From a virus, in IMG/VR virus record IMGVR_UViG_3300006990_000106, positions 1 to 31,200 of that record: a stretch of DNA of 31,200 nt; one strand, given 5' to 3'. The notes under the pieces are model-generated. The model did no database searches and had not been told where the DNA came from. It saw only the letters and a list, made by a program, of their open reading frames with translations. Both the position numbers and the translations under genes were made by a program. How positions within the stretch are numbered: the first letter of the stretch is position 1; every line of letters starts with the position of its first letter. Positions 1,471 to 10,672 of the stretch are shown here, in pieces.

Positions 1471-1821
1471 ATGCGTGAATCTCTCAAAGTTCTTAAAGAA
1501 TGCGCCGAGCTCCAGTCCAAAAAAGCTCAGGACTATCAGAACCCAAAATCAACCATTGTCCAAAGTGATTACTACCCTCGTGGTGTTCTTTCTATCATGG
1601 ACGTTATTCATACCAAATATGTTCGTGCTGTATCACTTGTTGAAGCTTCGGAGTATGGCGAAGAGCCAAATTTCGAATCTCTTGAGGATACTTTTAAAGA
1701 TATGATTAACTATGCGTCTTTCGCAGCAGCATGGTGTCGTGGTGGTATCCCAGGTCAAACTGATGATATGGCTCTGACGTGTAACCGTCCACGAAAGGTA
1801 GATACCAATGAAAACGATTAG
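1471..1821 (+). CDS. Nmad1/DUF1599-like nucleotide-modification-associated protein
   Basis: A 116-residue, mostly helical protein and the first gene after the promoter at 1409; AGGA lies a few bases upstream of the ATG. It has the layout I associate with Nmad1 (DUF1599): an N-terminal helix with KKAQDYQNP, then RGVLSIMDVIHTKYVRAV, then ESLEDTFKDMINYASFAAAW near residues 69-88. Families called Nmad occur beside enzymes of modified-base metabolism in phages, and the molecular role of this one is not established. Direct overlap with the dCMP hydroxymethylase gene fits a role in modified-nucleotide metabolism. The match is from memory of the family pattern and needs a profile search. Confidence 0.55.
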   Translation: MRESLKVLKECAELQSKKAQDYQNPKSTIVQSDYYPRGVLSIMDVIHTKYVRAVSLVEASEYGEEPNFESLEDTFKDMINYASFAAAWCRGGIPGQTDDMALTCNRPRKVDTNEND

Positions 1822-2521
1822 TCAGCTACGACTCGAATTCGCGTATGACCTTGCGTGTGGTCATGCGATCGAAAACCCAACGGGTGGTCGTATGCTCGAG
1901 ATGATCAATGTGTCTTTTATTGCTGATGAGGGCTTTATCTTTGGTAAACCAAACCAAGACTATATTGACCGTGAGATCGAATGGTATTTGTCTCAATCGT
2001 TGTGTGTCGACGACATTCCTGGTAATACACCACCCATTTGGCAACGTGTGTCTGATGATAACAATATGATCAACTCGAACTATGGTTGGTGTGTATACTC
2101 AGAAGAGAACGGTAACCAATACGATAACGTTGTACGTACACTACGTGAGACGCCTAACTCACGTCAAGCGGTCATGATCTATACACGTCCGACTATGCAT
2201 ACTGACTCAACCACAAACGGCCGTTATGACTTTATGTGTACCAACTCAGTTCAGTATATCTATCGTGCGGGTCAACTTCATGCAATGGTCAATATGAGAT
2301 CGAATGATGCCTGGGCTGGTTATCGTAATGACATCGCATGGCAAGACTATGTCCTTGACCAACTATGCAAAGACCTCAATATGAACCGTGGCCACATCTA
2401 CTGGAACGTAGGTTCGTTACACATCTATGAGGCACAGTTCTACCTTGTTGACAATTTCTACAAGACTGGCGCAACTCACATCTTAAAGAAGGATTACAAT
2501 GGCGAGTACAAAGTGGGATAA
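1808..2521 (+). CDS. 42: dCMP hydroxymethylase (T4 gp42 homologue)
   Basis: A 237-residue protein that can be aligned along its whole length with T4 gp42 (246 residues), which transfers a one-carbon unit from methylene-tetrahydrofolate to dCMP to give 5-hydroxymethyl-dCMP. Shared blocks include the segments around INSNYGW (88-94), MIYTRP (123-128), FMCTN (142-146) with catalytic Cys144, NMRSND (162-167) and WNVGSLHIY (199-207). Asp175 in GYRND aligns with T4 Asp179, the residue that favours cytosine. Thymidylate synthases and dUMP hydroxymethylases have Asn there. The gene overlaps the Nmad1-like gene by 14 nt and cd by 23 nt. It implies that the phage DNA contains hydroxymethylcytosine or a derivative of it. 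Confidence 0.95.
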   Translation: MKTISQLRLEFAYDLACGHAIENPTGGRMLEMINVSFIADEGFIFGKPNQDYIDREIEWYLSQSLCVDDIPGNTPPIWQRVSDDNNMINSNYGWCVYSEENGNQYDNVVRTLRETPNSRQAVMIYTRPTMHTDSTTNGRYDFMCTNSVQYIYRAGQLHAMVNMRSNDAWAGYRNDIAWQDYVLDQLCKDLNMNRGHIYWNVGSLHIYEAQFYLVDNFYKTGATHILKKDYNGEYKVG

Positions 2522-2963
2522 GAGGTTTCTTCGTATTGCTCGCGAAGTTTCCTCATGGTCAAAAGATCCAAGTAAAGGCATCGGCGCGGTTGCTGTGCTA
2601 GACAACCGTGTCGTGGCCACTGGATACAATGGCTTTCCCGAATGTGTACCCGACGAGGTTGAGTGGTTAACCGACGCTGAAACTAAACGGTCTCTCATTA
2701 TTCACGCAGAGATGAACCTTTTGATGGATGCCTCACGGACCAACCGCTCCCTTGTCGGGTCCACACTTTACGTATATGGCCTTATCATTTGTCCTAACTG
2801 TATGAAGCATATGGTTGCTGCAGGTGTTAATCGTATTGTATACTCGAACTTATATGATGATCCATTCTGGAATGAGGAATGGAAGAAGAGCCTCATGATA
2901 CTTTCTAAGGCCAGTAAACTAATTGGAGTGACAGAATATGACGCAACTCAAATTGATAACTAA
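2499..2963 (+). CDS. cd: dCMP deaminase
   Basis: A 154-residue zinc deaminase that converts dCMP to dUMP for thymidylate synthesis. The zinc and catalytic motifs are visible: HAE at 69-71 and CPNC at 98-101 followed by CMKHMVAAGV. The N-terminal half has the typical KDPSKGIGAV and TGYNGFP segments. It is shorter than T4 Cd (193 residues), lacking part of that protein's extra segment. AAGAAGGA precedes ATG 2499 by about six bases. Its substrate is also that of the neighbouring hydroxymethylase, so the two enzymes divide dCMP between hydroxymethyl-dCMP and dUMP/dTMP. ThyX at 8921 uses the dUMP. Confidence 0.93.
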   Translation: MASTKWDKRFLRIAREVSSWSKDPSKGIGAVAVLDNRVVATGYNGFPECVPDEVEWLTDAETKRSLIIHAEMNLLMDASRTNRSLVGSTLYVYGLIICPNCMKHMVAAGVNRIVYSNLYDDPFWNEEWKKSLMILSKASKLIGVTEYDATQIDN

Positions 2964-3924
2964 TCCGATATCAAATATACCAGTGAACAAAAAGTCACAC
3001 GTCCACGGCTGGACACAAGTATGGCGTGACCAACTAAATGCCGCCATCGATCATAAGTGCTCACCGGCTGTACAAGAAGCAGACCGGCTTTATATTGACC
3101 ACGGTGCTAATTATAGTGGTACCCTTAACTTATTTGGTGGTGCCAACGACGACCTATATTATAAAGTCGATCGAGTCATCAAAGCGCGTGATGTTTGGTC
3201 ACTCGATCATGATATGCCAGACTGGGGTGAACAGCTGAGAGGACGCATCGGTAACAAGACGACCTCAAAGCATATCACAAACGAGTGGTGTGACAAGGTC
3301 AGTGAGTTTTGTCTGTCTGTACCGAGTCTCAAACAAGAATACCAGACACACCTACCAAACATTACGCTCGGTGACAGTCACACTATTGCCTTTGCTGATA
3401 CTAACAGTATGGTCCTACGTAACGATGGTAAGACATTATTCGGTGCCCTTCGCGAGGGTATTCACAATATGTTTAGAGGACTGACGCCAAAAGGTGAGAT
3501 TACACTCTCGTTTGGTTCGATCGACATCCGACATCATATCCTACGTAAGGGTGATGACTATGACCTCGGGGCTTTGATACAACGATATGTAGATCAAGGT
3601 AAGGCCATTGAAGACCAGTATGGATGTTCGGTGAGTTATGCCGCACCGGTTCCTGTTGAGTTCGAAGGTCGTAAGATACCAAAGACTGGCTTCTATAAAA
3701 AGACACCATTCTTCGGATCTATGGAACAGCGCCAGAAGCTCACCTCGGACTTTATAAATAAACTAGAGACAATGAGTGGTGGTAAAGTAGTGGTACCACC
3801 TCAAGAATGGTATACGATGGACCCACGACAGTATGCAGAAGCCTATATGGAACTCGGTTCCAGCTTTCACATAGCTCCTCCTTTCTATCGTAAAAACAAT
3901 TGGGGTCAAATCCTTGGCGCATAA
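2938..3924 (+). CDS. SGNH-hydrolase-like protein, first gene of the putative modification cassette
   Basis: A 328-residue protein whose start overlaps cd by 26 nt, with GGAG about ten bases upstream. The central region has GDSHT at 145-149, the SGNH block-I form with Ser147 as candidate nucleophile, then LSFGSIDIRHH at 190-200, which resembles the FGxIDxR block of one SGNH subgroup. His311 near the end (SSFHIAPPF) is the candidate catalytic His, but the usual Asp of DxxH is not visible three residues before it. The first 140 residues form an extra domain I do not recognise, containing NLFGGANDD. SGNH enzymes are esterases or acyltransferases. Here one may add or remove an acyl group on a modified base or its precursor, which is inference from context. 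Confidence 0.5.
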   Translation: MTQLKLITNPISNIPVNKKSHVHGWTQVWRDQLNAAIDHKCSPAVQEADRLYIDHGANYSGTLNLFGGANDDLYYKVDRVIKARDVWSLDHDMPDWGEQLRGRIGNKTTSKHITNEWCDKVSEFCLSVPSLKQEYQTHLPNITLGDSHTIAFADTNSMVLRNDGKTLFGALREGIHNMFRGLTPKGEITLSFGSIDIRHHILRKGDDYDLGALIQRYVDQGKAIEDQYGCSVSYAAPVPVEFEGRKIPKTGFYKKTPFFGSMEQRQKLTSDFINKLETMSGGKVVVPPQEWYTMDPRQYAEAYMELGSSFHIAPPFYRKNNWGQILGA

Positions 3925-4807
3925 TAATCATATCCTCGATGGCATTAACCAAGACTTTCCATTTCAATGGTCAACTGCTCATGAGGCAAAAGAGTACTAT
4001 CTTGAAATGGCAAAGGACTGGGAAGACCCATATGGGGTTCCTATTGTAAAGACCCACGAAGGTGTACGTGTTGTACGTGATGACTTAACATCAGGCTCGA
4101 AGGTACGTGGAGGTGACTGTCTCATCTCGTCACTACCTGAGGAAATAGACACTATTGTGTACGTTCAGCCACGTACGGGTCTGGCAGGGATCTCTATCCT
4201 CGATGTTGCAAAGCGGCACAATAAAAAGACCAAACTGTTCATGCCATCGTCAAAACAGGTGTCGTTACACCAAGCTTGTTGTATCGAAGGTGGTGCAGAG
4301 GTATCATTCCACCGTATTGCGGCAATGCCAAACTTAAACAAGATTGCGTATGACTGGGCAATGGAAAATCCAAATGCATTCTTTGTACCTCTTGGCCTAA
4401 AGCACCCAATGGTTACCGCAGGCCTTGTTAAGGCTGCATCGTCGATACCGGCACCAGAAGAGGTCTACGTTGCCACTTCAACCGGTGTATTGTCACGATC
4501 ATTACAAATAGCATGGCCCGACACAAAGTTCACGTCTGTGTGTGTTGCACGTAATATGAAACATGGCGAGCTCGGTAGAGCACTTCCTGTTTCTGAACCA
4601 AAGGCTTTTCAACAAGCAGAGGCTGCAGAGAATCTTCCGCCATTTCCATCTATCGCTACGTATGACGGTAAGGTATGGAAGTACATTCCGAAGAATACAG
4701 GCCGTGACATTCTAATGTGGAATGTCGGAAAGCCTCCTGTACTGACCGACCAGACTATATATGAAACCACTGACTCATATCGCGAGTGGCCCAAAAAAGA
4801 TGCCTAA
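3914..4807 (+). CDS. PLP-dependent, fold-type-II-like enzyme (ACC deaminase/cysteine desulfhydrase group)
   Basis: A 297-residue frame overlapping the previous gene by 11 nt. No ATG lies near the N terminus; TTG 3914 is the best start, with GGGG eight bases before it. Residues 54-65 read VRDDLTSGSKVR, like the DDL..GNK.RKL motif of ACC deaminase relatives, where the Lys holds PLP, so Lys63 is the candidate. TGLAGISILDVAKRHNKK (88-105) and the GGAEV turn fit the following substrate-binding region. VYVATSTGVLSRSL fits the phosphate-binding loop but is not the usual glycine-rich form. PLP enzymes process amino-acid adducts on hypermodified thymines in phages such as ViI and M6, so a similar step on hydroxymethylcytosine is plausible. 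Confidence 0.6.
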   Translation: MAHNNHILDGINQDFPFQWSTAHEAKEYYLEMAKDWEDPYGVPIVKTHEGVRVVRDDLTSGSKVRGGDCLISSLPEEIDTIVYVQPRTGLAGISILDVAKRHNKKTKLFMPSSKQVSLHQACCIEGGAEVSFHRIAAMPNLNKIAYDWAMENPNAFFVPLGLKHPMVTAGLVKAASSIPAPEEVYVATSTGVLSRSLQIAWPDTKFTSVCVARNMKHGELGRALPVSEPKAFQQAEAAENLPPFPSIATYDGKVWKYIPKNTGRDILMWNVGKPPVLTDQTIYETTDSYREWPKKDA

Positions 4808-5417
4808 GCCTTTACCAGATGTCTATACTAACGTGGGTGACCACGTTGATCTTCTCCGTGAACACTTTGACAACATCAATGAGTTCTTACGGTCGGATGA
4901 GGCCTTTGCACTATTTCCTCCACCAAAGGTAGTTCGTCATAATGACTGGGGTGATATTGAGCAAAAGATCATTGAGAAGTATGGCCCAACGCATCGGATG
5001 TATGGTAAGTGCTTTCATAGTGCCAAGTTCGTGTACTTTTTCGGTGGCGGTAAAAAGTACTTCGATTTAAAGCTAATACGCCCGTTTGAGTTCTGTTCAC
5101 TTGGGTTTAAGACTACACACTGGTTTGTACGACACAAAACTACCCGAGAAGCCTTTGATCCGACCGGTGATCAATTTATATATCCTGGCTACGAGTATGG
5201 TAAGGACCGGCATATGATCGATCGATGGGAGACTGCTAAGAACGGCGAGTTCGGTAATCCATACTTTAAACGTGGCGGTACTCGTTTCGATGAGGTCGTA
5301 CCCAATAAAGTCGTTATGGCACTCGGTGAACTATACAAATCTAAGTATGGTACCAACGGTGGTATCGATTGGTGGGTAAATGCCGAAGATATGGTGGTTG
5401 AGAAACGTGATGCCTAA
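4800..5417 (+). CDS. Transglutaminase/papain-like Cys-His-Asp protein
   Basis: A 205-residue protein. ATG 4800 overlaps the previous stop within GATGCCTAAG. It has an ordered potential triad: Cys71 in YGKCFHSA, His107 in TTHWFVRH and Asp120 in FDPTGDQF. The C...HWF...DPTxxQF pattern is common in small phage proteins with a papain or transglutaminase-like fold, and their substrates are mostly unknown. Such enzymes hydrolyse or transfer amide bonds. In this operon an amide-forming or amide-clearing step on an aminated base is conceivable, but nothing in the sequence proves it. The C-terminal third (FDEVVPNKVV...GIDWW) has no recognised motif. Confidence 0.55.
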   Translation: MPKPLPDVYTNVGDHVDLLREHFDNINEFLRSDEAFALFPPPKVVRHNDWGDIEQKIIEKYGPTHRMYGKCFHSAKFVYFFGGGKKYFDLKLIRPFEFCSLGFKTTHWFVRHKTTREAFDPTGDQFIYPGYEYGKDRHMIDRWETAKNGEFGNPYFKRGGTRFDEVVPNKVVMALGELYKSKYGTNGGIDWWVNAEDMVVEKRDA

Positions 5418-6429
5418 GTACATTAATGATGAAGCAATCGACATCTTTGTCGACTACTATTACCCGCGGGCTAAATGGCTCCAGCTGAACTGCAGTTGGG
5501 GACCTTTAGACTATGAAGGTCCTGAAGCTAATGCTGAGGTCAACGATGAGTTGATGCAAAAGATCGACATCTATGACTCGTATACACGTAATGCCGCTGG
5601 ATTCCAAAACGTATTACAAGACCTATGGTTCGGTAAAAATACGCCAAAATGGAGATGGCAAGACGACGAACGACGTAAGCTGACCTCGTCGAACGAGAGT
5701 ATATCATGGAACATGGATACATGGTTATTTGTGTTTATGTGTCACCGTATCATGGGTTCTGGTGCGTCATTCGAGACTGATCATGGGTACCGCAATAATA
5801 TCGTCCAATATTGGGGTGCTCACCGCGACATCAAAGATATGTGTGAAGACATGGTTGAGACCAAAGCAAAGGGTCAAGCCATGTTTACGTCTATTGGTAA
5901 CCAACCACCAGCACCGAAGAAAGGTGTATCAAACGTCGACTTCATGACTAACGAGTTACCGTCACTCGTTGAAGCATTTAGCTCATGGCTAGTCAAAGAA
6001 CGTCGTGGACATAAAGAAATCGTCGACCATCTCAATGAGTACAACGCATCTGCAGGCCATCGTAAGTTCAACTTCCAGTATGCTGCCTTTGCGATGGATT
6101 GTTCAGACTATTATCCCCAACTAGTCGATGGAAACTCACATACATACTTAGGCAATAACGCAGTTCGTTGTATGAAGAGACTATCATCTGGCTGGAAGGC
6201 CGATGACTTTATGGATGTCCTTGTAGAACGTACTGGCGGTAAAGCTAAAGACCTTGAGGATGTGATGTGTGACTTTATTCGATTTGGCCAGAACTACGTA
6301 CCACGTGGTTCAGGTACCTTCGACCATATCCCATCTACAATTAAGAACAACTCTGGTTGGGAGTCCGGATTCGAACAAAGAACCGGTAACCCACCAGTCA
6401 AAAGTCCACTTGAACAATTTATGAAATAG
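5410..6429 (+). CDS. aGPT-PPlase / HMUDK-helical-like protein, putative base-modification transferase or kinase
   Basis: A 339-residue protein. ATG 5410 overlaps the previous stop in a second GATGCCTAAG junction. The N-terminal INDEAIDIFVDYYY, the block WLFVFMCHRIMGSGASFE (105-122) and the block FNFQYAAFAMDCSDYYPQLV (220-239) followed by YLGNNAVRCMKRL fit my memory of the helical alpha-glutamyl/putrescinyl-thymine pyrophosphorylase and 5-hmdU kinase-helical families. Those proteins have a DNA-glycosylase-like fold and act on hydroxymethyluracil in DNA, activating it or attaching amino compounds. Here the upstream synthase makes hydroxymethylcytosine, so the substrate would differ. It sits directly before uvsX, where T4 has its beta-glucosyltransferase region. 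A structure prediction would settle the family. Confidence 0.45.
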   Translation: MPKYINDEAIDIFVDYYYPRAKWLQLNCSWGPLDYEGPEANAEVNDELMQKIDIYDSYTRNAAGFQNVLQDLWFGKNTPKWRWQDDERRKLTSSNESISWNMDTWLFVFMCHRIMGSGASFETDHGYRNNIVQYWGAHRDIKDMCEDMVETKAKGQAMFTSIGNQPPAPKKGVSNVDFMTNELPSLVEAFSSWLVKERRGHKEIVDHLNEYNASAGHRKFNFQYAAFAMDCSDYYPQLVDGNSHTYLGNNAVRCMKRLSSGWKADDFMDVLVERTGGKAKDLEDVMCDFIRFGQNYVPRGSGTFDHIPSTIKNNSGWESGFEQRTGNPPVKSPLEQFMK

Positions 6430-6440
6430 GAAAGAAATAT

Positions 6441-7484
6441 ATGTCTTTACTCGACCGACTCAAGAAAAATTCAAAGGTAAAGTTTACTGATACCTTATCA
6501 CAATCCAAGTTCTTTACTCAAAAAGACATGGTTCCAACGCACGTACCTATGGTTAATATTGCCCTATCGGGTAAACTAGATGGTGGTGTGACTCCAGGCC
6601 TGACTGTCCTTGCAGGACCAAGTAAACACTTTAAGACATCGTTTGCTCTTCTGATGGCTGCGGCATATCTAAAAGCAAAACCTGAAGCTGTTATGTTGTT
6701 CTACGATTCAGAGTTTGGTTCACCACAAGAATACTTCCAACAGTTTGGTATCGATACTGACCGTGTTCTTCACGTACCTATTATGAACGTAGAAGAGCTC
6801 AAGTTTGACATCATTGCACAACTTGAAGAGATGGATCGTAGTGACGACGTTATTGTGGTCATCGACTCAGTTGGTAACCTTGCCTCGAAGAAAGAACTTG
6901 AGGATGCGAAGAACGAGAAGTCAGTTGCTGATATGTCTCGTGCCAAAGCACTCAAGGGCCTGTTCCGTATGGTCACACCATATCTGACTATGAAGAACAT
7001 TCCTCTTCTTGCTATCAACCACACATACCAAGAGATCGGCCTGTTCCCTAAGGCTGTTGTATCAGGCGGTACTGGTATCTATTACTCGGCCGACAACATC
7101 TGGATCCTTGGTCGTCAACAAGACAAAGTCGGTACCGAGATCAAAGGTTACCACTTTGTTATCAACGTCGAGAAGTCTCGGTACGTCAAAGAGAAGTCAA
7201 AGGTACCTATCTCAGTCTCATGGGAAGGTGGGGTCAAACAATATTCAGGTCTACTTGACGTCGCGATGGAGTCTGGTCATATTGTCAAACCGAAAAATGG
7301 TTGGTATTGCAAGGTTGACCGTGAGACGGGTGAGGTCATTGGTTCTAACTTCCGTGAGAAGGATGCCGATGGTGCTGAGTTCTGGGATCCAATTCTACAA
7401 GACCCAGAGTTCCGTACATTCATCGAGGATAAGTACAGTATTACACGGTCGTCACTTGTTGAGGATGAAGCCGACGAAGTGTAA
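6441..7484 (+). CDS. uvsX: UvsX, RecA-like recombinase
   Basis: A 347-residue protein matching T4 UvsX throughout. UvsX forms filaments on single-stranded DNA and promotes strand exchange in recombination-dependent replication and repair. Walker A is GPSKHFKT at 59-66, as in the T4 form GPSKSFKS, and Walker B is VIVVIDSVGN at 137-146. The blocks FYDSEFG, NLASKKELEDA, NIPLLAINHTY and KSRYVKEKSK are also conserved. It is somewhat shorter than T4 UvsX, lacking part of the acidic C-terminal tail. TAGGAAAG precedes ATG 6441. It is the last gene before a new promoter at 7492. Confidence 0.96.
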   Translation: MSLLDRLKKNSKVKFTDTLSQSKFFTQKDMVPTHVPMVNIALSGKLDGGVTPGLTVLAGPSKHFKTSFALLMAAAYLKAKPEAVMLFYDSEFGSPQEYFQQFGIDTDRVLHVPIMNVEELKFDIIAQLEEMDRSDDVIVVIDSVGNLASKKELEDAKNEKSVADMSRAKALKGLFRMVTPYLTMKNIPLLAINHTYQEIGLFPKAVVSGGTGIYYSADNIWILGRQQDKVGTEIKGYHFVINVEKSRYVKEKSKVPISVSWEGGVKQYSGLLDVAMESGHIVKPKNGWYCKVDRETGEVIGSNFREKDADGAEFWDPILQDPEFRTFIEDKYSITRSSLVEDEADEV

Positions 7485-7491
7485 TTAAGGG

Positions 7492-7520
7492 TGTACAAAC
7501 TAGCAGAAATGTTGTACTAT
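7492..7520 (+). promoter_or_regulatory. Early promoter of the same family before the helicase gene
   Basis: The -35 is TGTACA 7492-7497, the spacer is 17 nt and the -10 is TACTAT 7515-7520. The -10 is weaker than in the other members, and the AAATAACTG extension is absent (TTAAGGG instead). It starts eight bases after the uvsX stop and about 30 nt before the helicase ATG at 7550. Confidence 0.6.
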
Positions 7521-7549
7521 AAGAATATAACGCAATCTGAAAGCCATTG

Positions 7550-8914
7550 ATGTCAAAACTAGAAACCCTTATCCTTTCACACGTACTTCAAGATAATGAC
7601 TATTGCCGTAAGGTGATTCCTCATATCAAGAAGAAGTACTTTGGCGGATCTCACCGGAGCGTATTCGGTGAGGTCGTCAACTTTGTTAGTACCTACAACA
7701 AGATTCCAGACAAAGAGAGTCTACTCATCGAGCTCGAATCTAAGAGCTTTAGTGATGATCAGTACTCACACATGTCTCGAGTTATTGATGAGGTCTTTGA
7801 GCCAGTCAATACAGAGTCAACCGAATGGTTACTTGACAAGACTGAACGGTGGTGTCAAGACTCTGCGTGTGAGATCGCAGTGCTTGACGCTGTCAAGATC
7901 CTTAACGGTGAAGATCAAAAGCACGATCGTGGTATGATCCCTAAGCTATTCAAAGATGCCCTTGGTGTTACCTTTGATAATTCAGTCGGTCATGACTATA
8001 TCGAAGATGCTGCTGACCGTTGGGAACGGTATCACACTAAGGCCGATAAGATTCCATTCTCACTTGAGACCTTCAATGAGGTTACTGACGGTGGCTACGA
8101 GACCAAGACTCTTAACATCTTCATTGCTGGTATCCACGTTGGTAAGTCTTTGATGATGGCTTCGATGGCAGCAGATGCTATCATGGCCAACAAGAAGGTC
8201 TTGTATATCTCTATGGAAATGGCTGAAGAAAAGGTTGCCGAACGTATCGATGCTAACTTGATGAATCGTGACATCTCTGACCTTGAGAAGCTGTCTAAAG
8301 AAGAGTTCATCAACAAGGTCAAGCGCATTCAGGCCAAGACGGATGGTAACCTTATTGTCAAACAGTATCCAACTGCGGGTGCTCATGTCGGTCACTTCCG
8401 AGCTCTACTCGAAGATCTTAAAGTCAAACGTGAGTTCACTCCTGACGTTATCTTTGTCGATTATCTTAACATCTGTGCGTCAGAGCGTGTTCGTGGTGCC
8501 GCTGCTGGTCAGGGTACTTATATCCTCGTCAAGTCTATCGCCGAAGAGCTTCGCGGTTTGGCAGTCGAGTACGAGGTGCCAGTGTGGTCAGCAACGCAGT
8601 TTACCCGTGAGGGCATGGACTCATCCGATCCTTCTATGACTCAGACTTCAGAGTCTATCGGCTTGCCTGCTACTGTTGATCTTATGTGGGCGCTATCGCA
8701 GCCGGATCAGTTCAAAGAGAATGGCCAGTATCTGGTCAAGCAACTTAAGAACCGTTACAAGAACATGGACTATAAAGAGAAGTTCGTTATTGGTGTTGAT
8801 AAACCTAAGATGCAAGTCTTCGATCTTGACGTAGAAGCACAGCTCGGTATAATGGACTCATCTGGTAGTGTACAAAAAGAATCCCAAGACTTCAAATTCG
8901 ATTTCAATCAGTAG
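7550..8914 (+). CDS. 41: Replicative DNA helicase, DnaB/T4 gp41 type
   Basis: A 454-residue hexameric helicase that should unwind DNA at the phage fork together with the primase. ATG 7550 follows an in-frame TTG at 7547; the ATG is preferred. The N-terminal helical domain (about 1-150) is followed by the RecA-like motor domain. Walker A is AGIHVGKS at 193-200, with SMEMAEEKVAERI just after it. Walker B is VIFVDYLNI near residue 300, followed by ATQFTREG and the C-terminal KQLKNRYKN. The order uvsX then 41 matches T4 without gene 40. ThyX follows six bases after the stop. Confidence 0.93.
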   Translation: MSKLETLILSHVLQDNDYCRKVIPHIKKKYFGGSHRSVFGEVVNFVSTYNKIPDKESLLIELESKSFSDDQYSHMSRVIDEVFEPVNTESTEWLLDKTERWCQDSACEIAVLDAVKILNGEDQKHDRGMIPKLFKDALGVTFDNSVGHDYIEDAADRWERYHTKADKIPFSLETFNEVTDGGYETKTLNIFIAGIHVGKSLMMASMAADAIMANKKVLYISMEMAEEKVAERIDANLMNRDISDLEKLSKEEFINKVKRIQAKTDGNLIVKQYPTAGAHVGHFRALLEDLKVKREFTPDVIFVDYLNICASERVRGAAAGQGTYILVKSIAEELRGLAVEYEVPVWSATQFTREGMDSSDPSMTQTSESIGLPATVDLMWALSQPDQFKENGQYLVKQLKNRYKNMDYKEKFVIGVDKPKMQVFDLDVEAQLGIMDSSGSVQKESQDFKFDFNQ

Positions 8915-8920
8915 GTAATT

Positions 8921-9583
8921 ATGGAACAAAAAGTTTATCTTATAGCGGCATCAAAGCCATCAGCAATCACTGACTGTCATACAGCTCAAGACCTGGTAGC
9001 TTATACCGCACGGGTATCAAACCCAGCCAACCAAAACAATACAGCCACCGCAGGTAAGCTGGTCAAGTATCTTATTCGCGAGGCTCATTGGTCACCATTT
9101 GAAATGGTCCATATGACCATGGGTATCGATACGACTCGTGATATCTCTCGTCAGATCCTTCGTCACCGTTCGTTCTCATTTCAAGAGTTTAGCCAACGGT
9201 ACGCAGAGTCAGAGAACTTTACGACCGGCCGGGAGATGAGAACTCAAGATCTCAAAAACCGTCAGAACTCAGTTGAGACCGATGACCCAATGGCACAAAT
9301 CGAGTTTGAAAGAGCTCAGTCACGTATCTTGTTTCATGCCCAGAAAGAGTATAAAGCAGCGTTGAAAAAAGGTATTGCTAAGGAACAGGCACGGGCGTTA
9401 TTACCAGAAGGTCTGACTGGTACGACACTGTATATGGCTGGATCCCTTCGTTCTTGGATTCACTATATCGATTTGCGTTCCGCTAATGGTACTCAGAAAG
9501 AACATATGGATATTGCCCTTCAGTGTAAGGACATCGTCGAAACACATTTCCCAATGCTAAAAGAGTACTGGGACGCAAAATAA
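8921..9583 (+). CDS. thyX: Flavin-dependent thymidylate synthase ThyX
   Basis: A 220-residue protein that makes dTMP from dUMP using FAD and methylene-tetrahydrofolate. The ThyX signature is intact as RHRSFSFQEFSQRY at 81-94. Further conserved blocks are HWSPFEMVHMT (56-66), ARALLPEGL and the C-terminal NGTQKEH segment. T4 instead uses a ThyA-type enzyme (td). Dependence on ThyX fits the upstream dCMP deaminase that supplies dUMP. The last codons (Asp-Ala-Lys-stop) contain the upstream extension of the promoter at 9587, exactly as at the end of the gene at 1112-1405. Confidence 0.95.
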   Translation: MEQKVYLIAASKPSAITDCHTAQDLVAYTARVSNPANQNNTATAGKLVKYLIREAHWSPFEMVHMTMGIDTTRDISRQILRHRSFSFQEFSQRYAESENFTTGREMRTQDLKNRQNSVETDDPMAQIEFERAQSRILFHAQKEYKAALKKGIAKEQARALLPEGLTGTTLYMAGSLRSWIHYIDLRSANGTQKEHMDIALQCKDIVETHFPMLKEYWDAK

Positions 9584-9586
9584 CTG

Positions 9587-9615
9587 TGTACAAACCCTTC
9601 AAAATATGGTATGAT
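9587..9615 (+). promoter_or_regulatory. Early promoter (TGTACA-17-TATGAT)
   Basis: The -35 is TGTACA 9587-9592, the spacer is 17 nt and the -10 is TATGAT 9610-9615. The stretch from GCAAAATAACTG through AAACCCTTCAA is identical to the promoter at 1409. The predicted transcript start (about 9622) falls on the ATG of the small frame at 9623, so the first gene could be leaderless. Confidence 0.7.
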
Positions 9616-9622
9616 GGATATT

Positions 9623-9775
9623 ATGATTAAATTTATTAAGACACTTATTGCAGACTTTAATGACCCAATAGGAGACCTTCGATTTGGCTATGCGATTCAA
9701 CCAGAAGACCAAGAAGCAAATGGTGGACGAGGAACTTCAGAAGTACAACCAACTGATGAAGAAACTAGGTCGTAA
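9623..9775 (+). CDS. Possible 50-residue protein overlapping the next gene
   Basis: ATG 9623 is the first start codon after the promoter at 9587, and the frame runs to TAA 9773-9775. The peptide starts MIKFIKTLIADFND and has an acidic C-terminal half. It overlaps the next gene (start 9690) by 86 nt in a different frame. No ribosome-binding site is possible if transcription starts near 9622. Translation through it could deliver ribosomes to the next start. It may equally be a chance frame. Confidence 0.3.
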   Translation: MIKFIKTLIADFNDPIGDLRFGYAIQPEDQEANGGRGTSEVQPTDEETRS

Positions 9776-10076
9776 GCCAGTCACGTCTAAATCTACAAGA
9801 CGGAAGTCGATACGGGTATCTTCTCGTAACCCAGTAACGACTACTAGGACTGATGATCAATATCGTAATCCAGACTTGCCGTCGACAAGCGATAAAGTTA
9901 TTCATAGTACCGGTAAGGCCGACTTTGTCCTTGCCTTTGATCGTGGCCAAGAGTCGCAATCTACCATTGACGCTATAAAAGAGAAGGCGAATAGTACTGC
10001 GCCTCTCTACTCAAAAGGTGCATATCAGTACGTAACACCTAAAACTAATACAACCGAAATCGGACGTAAAATATGA
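9690..10076 (+). CDS. Hypothetical basic protein
   Basis: About 128 residues from ATG 9690. A TTG at 9684 is an alternative that sits better with the GGAG at 9671-9674. The N-terminal 50 residues are rich in Lys and Arg (RFNQKTKKQ, KSTRRKSIR), while the rest is polar, with KADFVLAFDRGQES near the middle. The stop overlaps the start of the P-loop gene (ATGA at 10073), which supports a real coupled gene. No family was recognised. The basic N terminus could bind nucleic acid. Confidence 0.65.
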   Translation: MRFNQKTKKQMVDEELQKYNQLMKKLGRKPVTSKSTRRKSIRVSSRNPVTTTRTDDQYRNPDLPSTSDKVIHSTGKADFVLAFDRGQESQSTIDAIKEKANSTAPLYSKGAYQYVTPKTNTTEIGRKI

Positions 10077-10672
10077 AAACCAAGTTCATCAACCTTTTTG
10101 GGGCACCAGGTGCCGGCAAGTCCACCGTGGCTGCTGGCGTCTATTCCCAATTAAGTCAGCGTGGTTATGACGTCGAGCTAGTTCCCGAGTTTGCCAAAGA
10201 ACTTGTGTGGGAAGATAACGCATCGGCACTGACCAACCAAGCATATGTGACTGCTCGTCAGTTCTATATGATTCACCGTCTCGACGGCCAATGTCGTTGG
10301 GTAATCACCGATAGTCCTGCACTTCTTGGTGCGGCGTATTGCACTCAAGATTATCCACAGTGTTATATTGACACGCTGAAATGGTATCATAGCCAGACTG
10401 ATAGTAATATGAACTATCTTATTGAACGTGCCGATTCGGTTGTGTTTCAACAGAAAGGTCGTGTCCATAGTGAGCACGAGTCAGCTATGGTCCATGACCG
10501 TATCATTAGTCTTTTAGGTGAAGCTAACGTCGAGTTTAGTACGTACGACAACTTAAATGCTATTCATCACATTGTACGTGATGTGATGGCGGCTGAAGAA
10601 TACGATAATACTCTCGAACTAACTCAAACCAAACCAGAAGATGTGGCAATCTTAGGAGGCCAATGTGATTAA
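10073..10672 (+). CDS. P-loop NTPase, small kinase-like (AAA_28-type)
   Basis: A 199-residue protein with Walker A GAPGAGKS at 10-17, then VELVPEFAKELVW (35-47), which resembles the segment after the P-loop in NadR-like and AAA_28 kinases. A Walker B-like segment WVITDSPALLG (79-89) follows. It is probably a nucleoside, nucleotide or related small-molecule kinase acting in the cytoplasm. T4 phosphorylates hydroxymethyl-dCMP with gp1, and no gp1 homologue is visible here, so this could fill a kinase step in modified-nucleotide or base metabolism; that is inference. It is coupled to its neighbours on both sides by overlaps. Confidence 0.7.
   Translation: MKTKFINLFGAPGAGKSTVAAGVYSQLSQRGYDVELVPEFAKELVWEDNASALTNQAYVTARQFYMIHRLDGQCRWVITDSPALLGAAYCTQDYPQCYIDTLKWYHSQTDSNMNYLIERADSVVFQQKGRVHSEHESAMVHDRIISLLGEANVEFSTYDNLNAIHHIVRDVMAAEEYDNTLELTQTKPEDVAILGGQCD

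Follow-up and report, generated by a model that had tools for sequence, protein, structure and literature searches.

To our knowledge, the caps found on 5-hydroxymethylcytosine (5hmC) are sugars and a carbamoyl group, and amino-acid tailoring has been described for hydroxymethyluracil (hmU). In Pseudomonas phage M6, the base is 5hmU and the operon encodes an ADDT protein (gp51), a PLP enzyme (gp52, to which decarboxylation of the base-linked amino acid is attributed), an annotated photolyase (gp53, presumably a radical-SAM enzyme), an HMUDK kinase (gp54) and an HMUDK_hel protein (gp55). In T4, as the preliminary description of the present locus had stated, the interval between gene 42 and uvsX holds the beta-glucosyltransferase (beta-GT) gene b-gt, together with segA. 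Two further systems modify cytosine without a sugar: a single carbamoyltransferase, neighbouring a thymidylate-synthase homolog, caps 5hmC to give 5cmC (MetaGPA, PMC8670742), and the CmoA/CmoX/CmoY product, 5-carboxymethylcytosine-glycine, does not start from 5hmC but is made by a cytosine carboxymethyltransferase together with an amide ligase that uses ATP (PMC12783734).

We analysed a stretch of 31,200 nucleotides (the window) from a T4-like virus (IMG/VR record IMGVR_UViG_3300006990_000106), in which positions 1471-6429 carry a block of overlapping genes with uvsX next to it (Table 1). The order previously reported, from the Nmad1-like gene to aGPT and then uvsX, was recovered with every ORF in place, and the genes of the block overlap. 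The original ORFs of TGL (4761-5417) and aGPT (5380-6429) were given new, likely true starts, with which each gene overlaps the preceding one by 8 bases. Like the T4 gene 42/b-gt/uvsX system for glucosyl-5hmC, the locus has a gp42 homolog and lies upstream of uvsX; unlike T4, it showed no beta-GT, and the slot holds a multi-enzyme block of other families. We propose, with a probability of roughly 0.6, that this block is a cassette for post-replicative, amino-acid-derived hypermodification of 5hmC, occupying the genomic place of the beta-glucosyltransferase, and the analysis supports the interpretation first given to it.

Table 1. Genes of the block and its downstream boundary in the window
Feature	Coordinates	Strand	Basis
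Nmad1/DUF1599-like small protein	1471..1821	+	Pfam PF07659 E 6.2e-5; phrog_18404/1485
dCMP 5-hydroxymethylase, T4 gp42 family (predicted)	1808..2521	+	Thymidylat_synt E 3.5e-14; gp42 profile match
dCMP deaminase	2499..2963	+	PF00383 2.2e-16; phrog_174 2e-43
SGNH-fold enzyme (SGNH; predicted)	2938..3924	+	AF2 + Foldseek; phrog_13881/17781 (unknown function)
PLP enzyme of the M6 gp52 family, fold-type II-like (PLP)	3914..4807	+	phrog_7093; PALP E 5e-4, below cut-off
Cysteine-enzyme-like protein (TGL)	4800..5417	+	candidate C-H-D triad; accessory
Putative ADDT/HMUDK_hel-superfamily helical protein (aGPT)	5410..6429	+	AF2/Foldseek + E-x3-C signature
uvsX recombinase, downstream boundary	6441..7484	+	phrog_97 4.4e-89; PF21134 2.3e-17

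The hydroxymethylase profile matched T4 gp42 (1b49; E 1.9e-100), with the Asp179 column conserved. The catalytic Cys144 and Asp175 (equivalent to T4 Asp179) were invariant in 45 sequences and conserved in at least 97% of 110; the Asp position was set by the gp42 alignment, where one entry with Asn in that column marks the site. The protein thereby shows the features of a T4-type hydroxymethylase, namely a thymidylate-synthase fold with the Cys and with Asp replacing the Asn of thymidylate synthases. On the basis of Asp175, its substrate is predicted to be dCMP, and the base differs from the hmU of thymidine hypermodification. The gp42 match and the conserved Asp175 lend strong support to the earlier prediction of hydroxymethylcytosine as the upstream base and to this enzyme as its probable source.

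Many contigs of uncultured viruses have SGNH, PLP and aGPT beside the hydroxymethylase; the order of the genes varies, and the set is present or absent almost as a unit. Around SGNH, the hydroxymethylase and aGPT lay nearby in 25/25 groups, PLP in 24/25 and the Nmad1/DUF1599-like gene (in the window a call of 23.7 bits, under Pfam's 25-bit cut-off) in 16/25, which is more often than expected by chance. The groups were formed from SGNH genes flanked on each side by 4.5 kb or more, merged until no exact 120-mer was shared between groups. At 34 well-flanked hydroxymethylase loci the three genes were together or absent, the exception being one locus with a 44RR-type pair. Partners were also replaced: one contig (L142) has an HMUDK_hel protein above the Pfam cut-off in aGPT's place. 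The prim-42-uvsX-41 order is generally conserved and harbours other auxiliary genes, so the block might be unrelated auxiliary metabolic genes held together by T4-like replication gene order; however, the joint presence or absence, the several permutations and the replacement of partners by members of DNA-hypermodification families argue against this already disfavoured explanation, which we consider highly improbable.

The preliminary description had placed four co-translated enzymes in the slot. All four are present and overlapping, but the block that recurs elsewhere is SGNH, PLP and aGPT. Besides sister contigs of the window, TGL had a relative in only one other virus (55% identity), and it is therefore not regarded as a core member; a search of 50,697 phage records did not find it. 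GKCF, TTHWF and DPT were conserved in the alignment of two TGL sequences. TGL matched no Pfam or NCBIfam family that would identify it as transglutaminase-like, and we treat it as an accessory Cys-His-Asp enzyme-like protein with a candidate triad. SGNH and aGPT likewise had no Pfam match. Three aGPT queries against the same 50,697 records revealed no block-bearing cultured phage. Judged by uvsX, the closest relative with annotation is phage C48C1; it lacks the hydroxymethylase, and neither PLP nor aGPT found a match in it. No host is claimed, because the genome matches fell in a single bin, Water_Bin34, which holds several T4-like hydroxymethylase contigs.

Kinship of two proteins with the thymidine-hypermodification machinery had also been suggested, and it was borne out for both PLP and aGPT. 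PLP matched phrog_7093 ('threonine dehydratase'; 8.9e-34), the PHROG that contains M6 gp52, and hhalign paired it with gp52 (96.2%, E 2.7e-9), aligning the C-terminal PFP..YD.KaWK..FWN.G stretch. The Schiff-base Lys (Lys63) was conserved at 97% or more, and a PDB sequence search with the PLP profile gave nothing meaningful. By analogy with gp52, PLP is a candidate tailoring enzyme, possibly decarboxylase-like. The AF2 model of aGPT (pLDDT 88.8; residues 1-9 below 50) was all-helical and resembled ADDT proteins: the best named BFVD match was the ADDT protein A0A6J5L8T5 (E 1.3e-12, TM 0.79/0.72), and most of the better-ranked matches below it were ADDT, Pplase1 or HMUDK_hel proteins. We defined a C-terminal signature, E-x3-C-x-[FWY] (E293-x3-C297 in aGPT), which occurred in 49/50 aGPT, 28/28 ADDT and 13/18 HMUDK_hel sequences, compared with 7/401 background ORFs. 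A Pfam search of 38 aGPT members was negative, without any ADDT (PF18724) hit, no protein in the block genomes exceeded that cut-off (the M6 control was positive), and hmmsearch and hhalign of aGPT against M6 gp51, gp55 and profiles from their IMG/VR relatives returned nothing significant. Proof of membership from sequence alone was therefore abandoned, fold and signature being the two approaches that succeeded; hhalign likewise failed to connect ADDT with HMUDK_hel. The aGPT profile in a PDB sequence search and the aGPT model in Foldseek PDB gave nothing meaningful. We propose from the model that aGPT is a putative amino acid:DNA transferase of the ADDT/HMUDK_hel superfamily.

For SGNH, the AF2 model (pLDDT 92) retrieved mostly SGNH/GDSL hydrolases with Foldseek PDB (probability 1.00, best E 9.8e-5), and an SGNH hydrolase/acyltransferase fold is predicted. 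Conserved residues included the nucleophile Ser147 in a GDSH motif, the block-V His311 and Glu305; the Asp usually found three positions upstream of that His is absent, residue 308 being Ser in this family. A PDB sequence search with the SGNH profile gave nothing meaningful. Placement of the proteins in unrelated, non-base-modifying families had been named as a finding that would refute the earlier interpretation, and the AlphaFold/Foldseek models did not refute it. The 5-hmdU DNA kinase (PF18748) was not found in the block genomes searched, with a positive M6 control. A P-loop kinase in the window (10073-10672), considered as a missing 5hmC kinase, was rejected as a core part because the other block genomes searched yielded no relative; it shares little beyond the P-loop with M6 gp54. 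SGNH may stand in the kinase's place, although its role is a guess.

Like M6, the region combines a thymidylate-synthase homolog with a helical protein probably of the ADDT/HMUDK_hel superfamily and a PLP enzyme that shares its PHROG with gp52, and the proposed route would likewise run from a hydroxymethyl base through amino-acid installation to tailoring. Unlike M6, the predicted base is 5hmC, SGNH is a constant partner, neither a P-loop HMUDK kinase nor a radical-SAM gene was found in the block, and the helical protein lies below Pfam thresholds. The gp42 homolog would convert dCMP into hmdCMP for incorporation into DNA, a step strongly supported by homology. In DNA, the hydroxymethyl group would become a leaving group, and the ADDT-like protein would swap in an amino acid or similar nucleophile; SGNH would act where M6-type phages use the P-loop kinase, at a guess by acylating the 5hmC hydroxyl. 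Interchangeable tailoring enzymes would then trim the attached group, with PLP, possibly a class II aldolase seen in one contig without PLP, and here also the Cys-His-Asp enzyme as candidates. This route would leave a cytosine bearing an amino-acid-derived group, possibly an aminoalkyl one, and so protect the DNA from restriction. The specific kinase-free version, with SGNH activating 5hmC in DNA, the ADDT-like protein substituting an amino acid, and a PLP, aldolase or cysteine enzyme, each exchangeable for another, reshaping it, is tentative; it would yield a class of DNA bases for which the papers searched contain no description. The genes overlap those of nucleotide-level enzymes (hydroxymethylase, deaminase), and the known hmC carbamoyltransferase accepts 5hmdCTP (PMC8670742), so the four enzymes might instead work on mononucleotides (hmdCMP/hmdCTP) before polymerisation; this seems improbable, given that the 5hmdU DNA kinase of thymidine hypermodification acts on DNA (PMC6449724), as does ADDT, judged by its Pfam name.

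The preliminary description had favoured amino-acid or amide decoration over glucose. On the second part, beta-GT (PF09198) matched T4 alone among 20 records and none of the block genomes searched, and the hydroxymethylase loci that did have it were all without the block. The first part is suggested by analogy with the protein families. In Aeromonas phage 25, SGNH adjoins a UDP-galactopyranose mutase, and L142 has a gene resembling inositol-phosphate synthase between those for SGNH and HMUDK_hel; the attached group may therefore not always be an amino acid. Together with the UDP-glucose-dehydrogenase- and epimerase-like genes next to the block in many contigs, and a Na/solute symporter annotated glucose-cotransporter-like beside 44RR ORF233c, these neighbours would favour a helical transferase that joins to 5hmC a nucleophile other than an amino acid, such as a sugar or a cyclitol, while SGNH attaches acyl groups or takes them off. 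We consider this unlikely, because an M6-family PLP accompanies SGNH in nearly all groups of the window's lineage, aGPT resembles ADDT and not a glycosyltransferase, and no beta-GT was found in the block genomes searched.

An amino-acid-derived 5hmC cap would resemble 5cmC in being a non-sugar cap made beside a thymidylate-synthase homolog, yet the carbamoyltransferase described there belongs to no family present in the window. It would resemble the CmoA/CmoX/CmoY product as an amino-acid-decorated cytosine in phage DNA. The literature searched held no published description of the SGNH/PLP/aGPT block, a mention in Iyer 2013 or Lee 2021 (NAR) being possible. If correct, our proposal would add a new group of cytosine modifications serving as chemical camouflage for viral DNA, explain how uncultured T4-like viruses without glucosyltransferases could resist restriction, and offer enzymes for 5hmC labelling. 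Part of the idea is directly testable in cultured Aeromonas phage 44RR (44RR2.8t), which carries gp42 and, like the window, an SGNH domain; there, unlike in the window, it is fused to an HMUDK_hel-like domain in the single ORF233c, away from gene 42 and with no PLP found, and the window's SGNH aligned with the N-terminal part of this protein (E 2e-45).

At the level of homology, the analysis shows hydroxymethylcytosine (hmC) synthesis, the PLP and SGNH families, the aGPT fold and the co-occurrence of their genes, and we rate the block (the SGNH, PLP and aGPT genes beside the dCMP hydroxymethylase gene, with TGL as an accessory) as amino-acid:DNA hypermodification logic probably transferred to 5hmC, where its partner enzyme differs. 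A profile of the window hydroxymethylase and its relatives matched the T4 dCMP hydroxymethylase (E 1.9e-100). Asp175, which corresponds to the Asp column reading Asn in one T4 entry (6l18), and Cys144 were invariant in a set of 45 sequences; in a set of 110, both were conserved at 97% or more. Given this match and conservation, 5hmC is predicted as the base. Among cytosine modifications, 5cmC (PMC8670742), 5cxmC-glycine (PMC12783734) and sugar caps (PMC13390438) are known, and no description of this block was found in the open-access literature searched.

The window covers part of the genome of a T4-like virus, and a 69-kb IMG/VR contig carried an identical block (100% identity). Seven ORFs with head-to-tail overlaps were followed by uvsX and the gene 41 helicase. 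Homologs suggest starts at 4800 for TGL and 5410 for aGPT, with which each gene would overlap the preceding one by 8 bases; residues 1-9 of the aGPT AlphaFold model had pLDDT <50, in agreement with the later aGPT start. A P-loop kinase (AAA_28; phrog_2107, thymidylate-kinase-like), seen elsewhere only in a sister contig, is possibly an hmdCMP kinase.

Coordinates of features in the window and in compared loci
Source	Feature	Position
Window	Seven overlapping ORFs	1471-6429
Window	dCMP hydroxymethylase	1808-2521
Window	SGNH	2938-3924
Window	PLP	3914-4807
Window	TGL	4800-5417
Window	aGPT	5410-6429
Window	P-loop kinase	10073-10672
L002, Aeromonas phage 44RR2.8t	ORF233c and symporter	6402-10382
L003, Erythrobacter phage R6L	gp1, PLP homolog and DNA methyltransferase	6783-9214
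L004, Microcystis phage Mae-JY30	PLP homolog and DNA methyltransferase	7105-8696
L142	Inositol-1-phosphate-synthase-like ORF	4631-5911
L217, Aeromonas phage 25	SGNH neighbourhood	2770-6041
L128	Second ~325-aa protein	6033-7007
L162	Second ~325-aa protein	6024-7007
L043	Second ~325-aa protein	4196-5185

SGNH genes with at least 4.5 kb on either side formed 25 groups, in which hydroxymethylase (25/25), aGPT (25/25) and PLP (24/25) genes lay nearby in three gene orders. We also tallied a locus listing anchored on the hydroxymethylase, comprising 34 loci with ~4.4 kb on either side, not all independent and most picked for closeness to the window's gene: aGPT, PLP and SGNH occurred together in 7, none of the three in 26, SGNH with a 44RR-type helical protein in 1, and any other subset in 0. 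Five hydroxymethylase loci carried a T4-type beta-glucosyltransferase, and the block was absent from all five; the corresponding family (PF09198) matched in T4 only, with none in the block genomes searched, whose contigs may be incomplete. Phage C48C1, the closest annotated relative by uvsX (74%), was without a hydroxymethylase; the PLP search there was empty, as was the aGPT search, run without a positive control. By eye, many contigs (e.g. L008, L010, L014) had UDP-glucose dehydrogenase-, NAD epimerase-, KDO-8-P synthase- and cytidylyltransferase-like genes flanking the block. At least six contigs binned as Rhodobacteraceae Water_Bin34 (L213, L214, L342-L347) carried T4-like hydroxymethylases, some with the block, and are probably contaminating phage contigs.

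The aGPT product had no significant match in Pfam, PHROG or NCBIfam. Its AlphaFold model (pLDDT 88.8) retrieved three BFVD proteins at E <1e-10, one of which bears the name amino acid:DNA transferase (ADDT; E 1.3e-12, TM 0.79/0.72). Ranked after these three were more ADDT, Pplase1 and HMUDK_hel proteins, including those of SP10 and PhiW-14, interspersed with unnamed or weak matches; in all, only the best four matches attained E ~1e-3. An E-x3-C-x-[FWY] signature, spotted by eye before counting and therefore counted descriptively, was present in 49/50 aGPT homologs versus 7/401 background ORFs, in 28/28 ADDT relatives of M6 gp51 and in 13/18 HMUDK_hel relatives of M6 gp55. It also occurred in 8/11 sequences of a second helical protein and in 2/2 44RR-type sequences. 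Sequence profile searches linking aGPT to ADDT/HMUDK_hel stayed below significance, and likewise gave no link between ADDT and HMUDK_hel themselves. The second protein (~325 aa; motifs GGTG(H/F)FDG and EDKxC) lay alongside aGPT in some block variants (L128, L162, L043 and others), recalling M6, which carries both ADDT and HMUDK_hel. We propose that aGPT would act on DNA, attaching an amino acid to its 5hmC.

PLP and M6 gp52 share phrog_7093 and a C-terminal PFP..YD.KaWK..FWN.G stretch, and Lys63 of PLP is conserved. M6 gp52 is said to be a decarboxylase, and thymidine hypermodifications reportedly derive from amino acids; PLP may trim the product. In contig L006, where PLP is missing, a class II aldolase is located between SGNH and aGPT. 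One other virus carried a TGL homolog, and C, H and D residues are kept in both proteins. PLP homologs also lay within or adjoining a DNA methyltransferase that has a ParB-like domain in phages R6L and Mae-JY30 (the latter homolog in phrog_7093), which suggests another PLP-linked DNA modification.

Thymidine hypermodification includes a DNA-kinase step (PMC6449724). The hmU-DNA kinase PF18748 was not found in any block genome searched, among them 135-199 kb contigs, although contigs may be incomplete; both M6 records matched as positive control. The predicted SGNH structure (pLDDT 92) has an SGNH-enzyme fold and matched many GDSL/SGNH hydrolases in the PDB (Foldseek, probability 1.00) and, more weakly, the acyltransferases SsfX3 and PatB. 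Ser147 (of GDSH), His311 and Glu305 are conserved, and Ser308 occupies a position that is Asp in SGNH enzymes. SGNH might replace the kinase and activate the hydroxymethyl group, the most tentative step of the scheme. Alternatively, it could add a final cap by acylation.

Aeromonas phage 44RR2.8t, a good test object, is cultured and has gp42; its ORF233c, an SGNH-HMUDK_hel-like fusion, adjoins a predicted Na/solute symporter. The N-terminus of ORF233c is a window-type SGNH domain (E 2e-45) and the C-terminus is HMUDK_hel-like (Pfam E 0.0036); a profile of this C-terminus and the L142 protein gave E 1.4e-4 and probability 53% against HMUDK_hel. Contig L142 had an HMUDK_hel protein above cut-off (41.2 bits vs 25) between SGNH and uvsX, and no aGPT match was found in it. 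Another nucleophile at the SGNH step is hinted at by the inositol-1-phosphate-synthase-like ORF, judged by eye, between SGNH and the HMUDK_hel protein of L142, and by the UDP-galactopyranose mutase that adjoins SGNH in Aeromonas phage 25. There, the mutase and a 358-aa protein, glycosyltransferase-like by eye, lie ahead of a stand-alone SGNH, suggesting a sugar variant.
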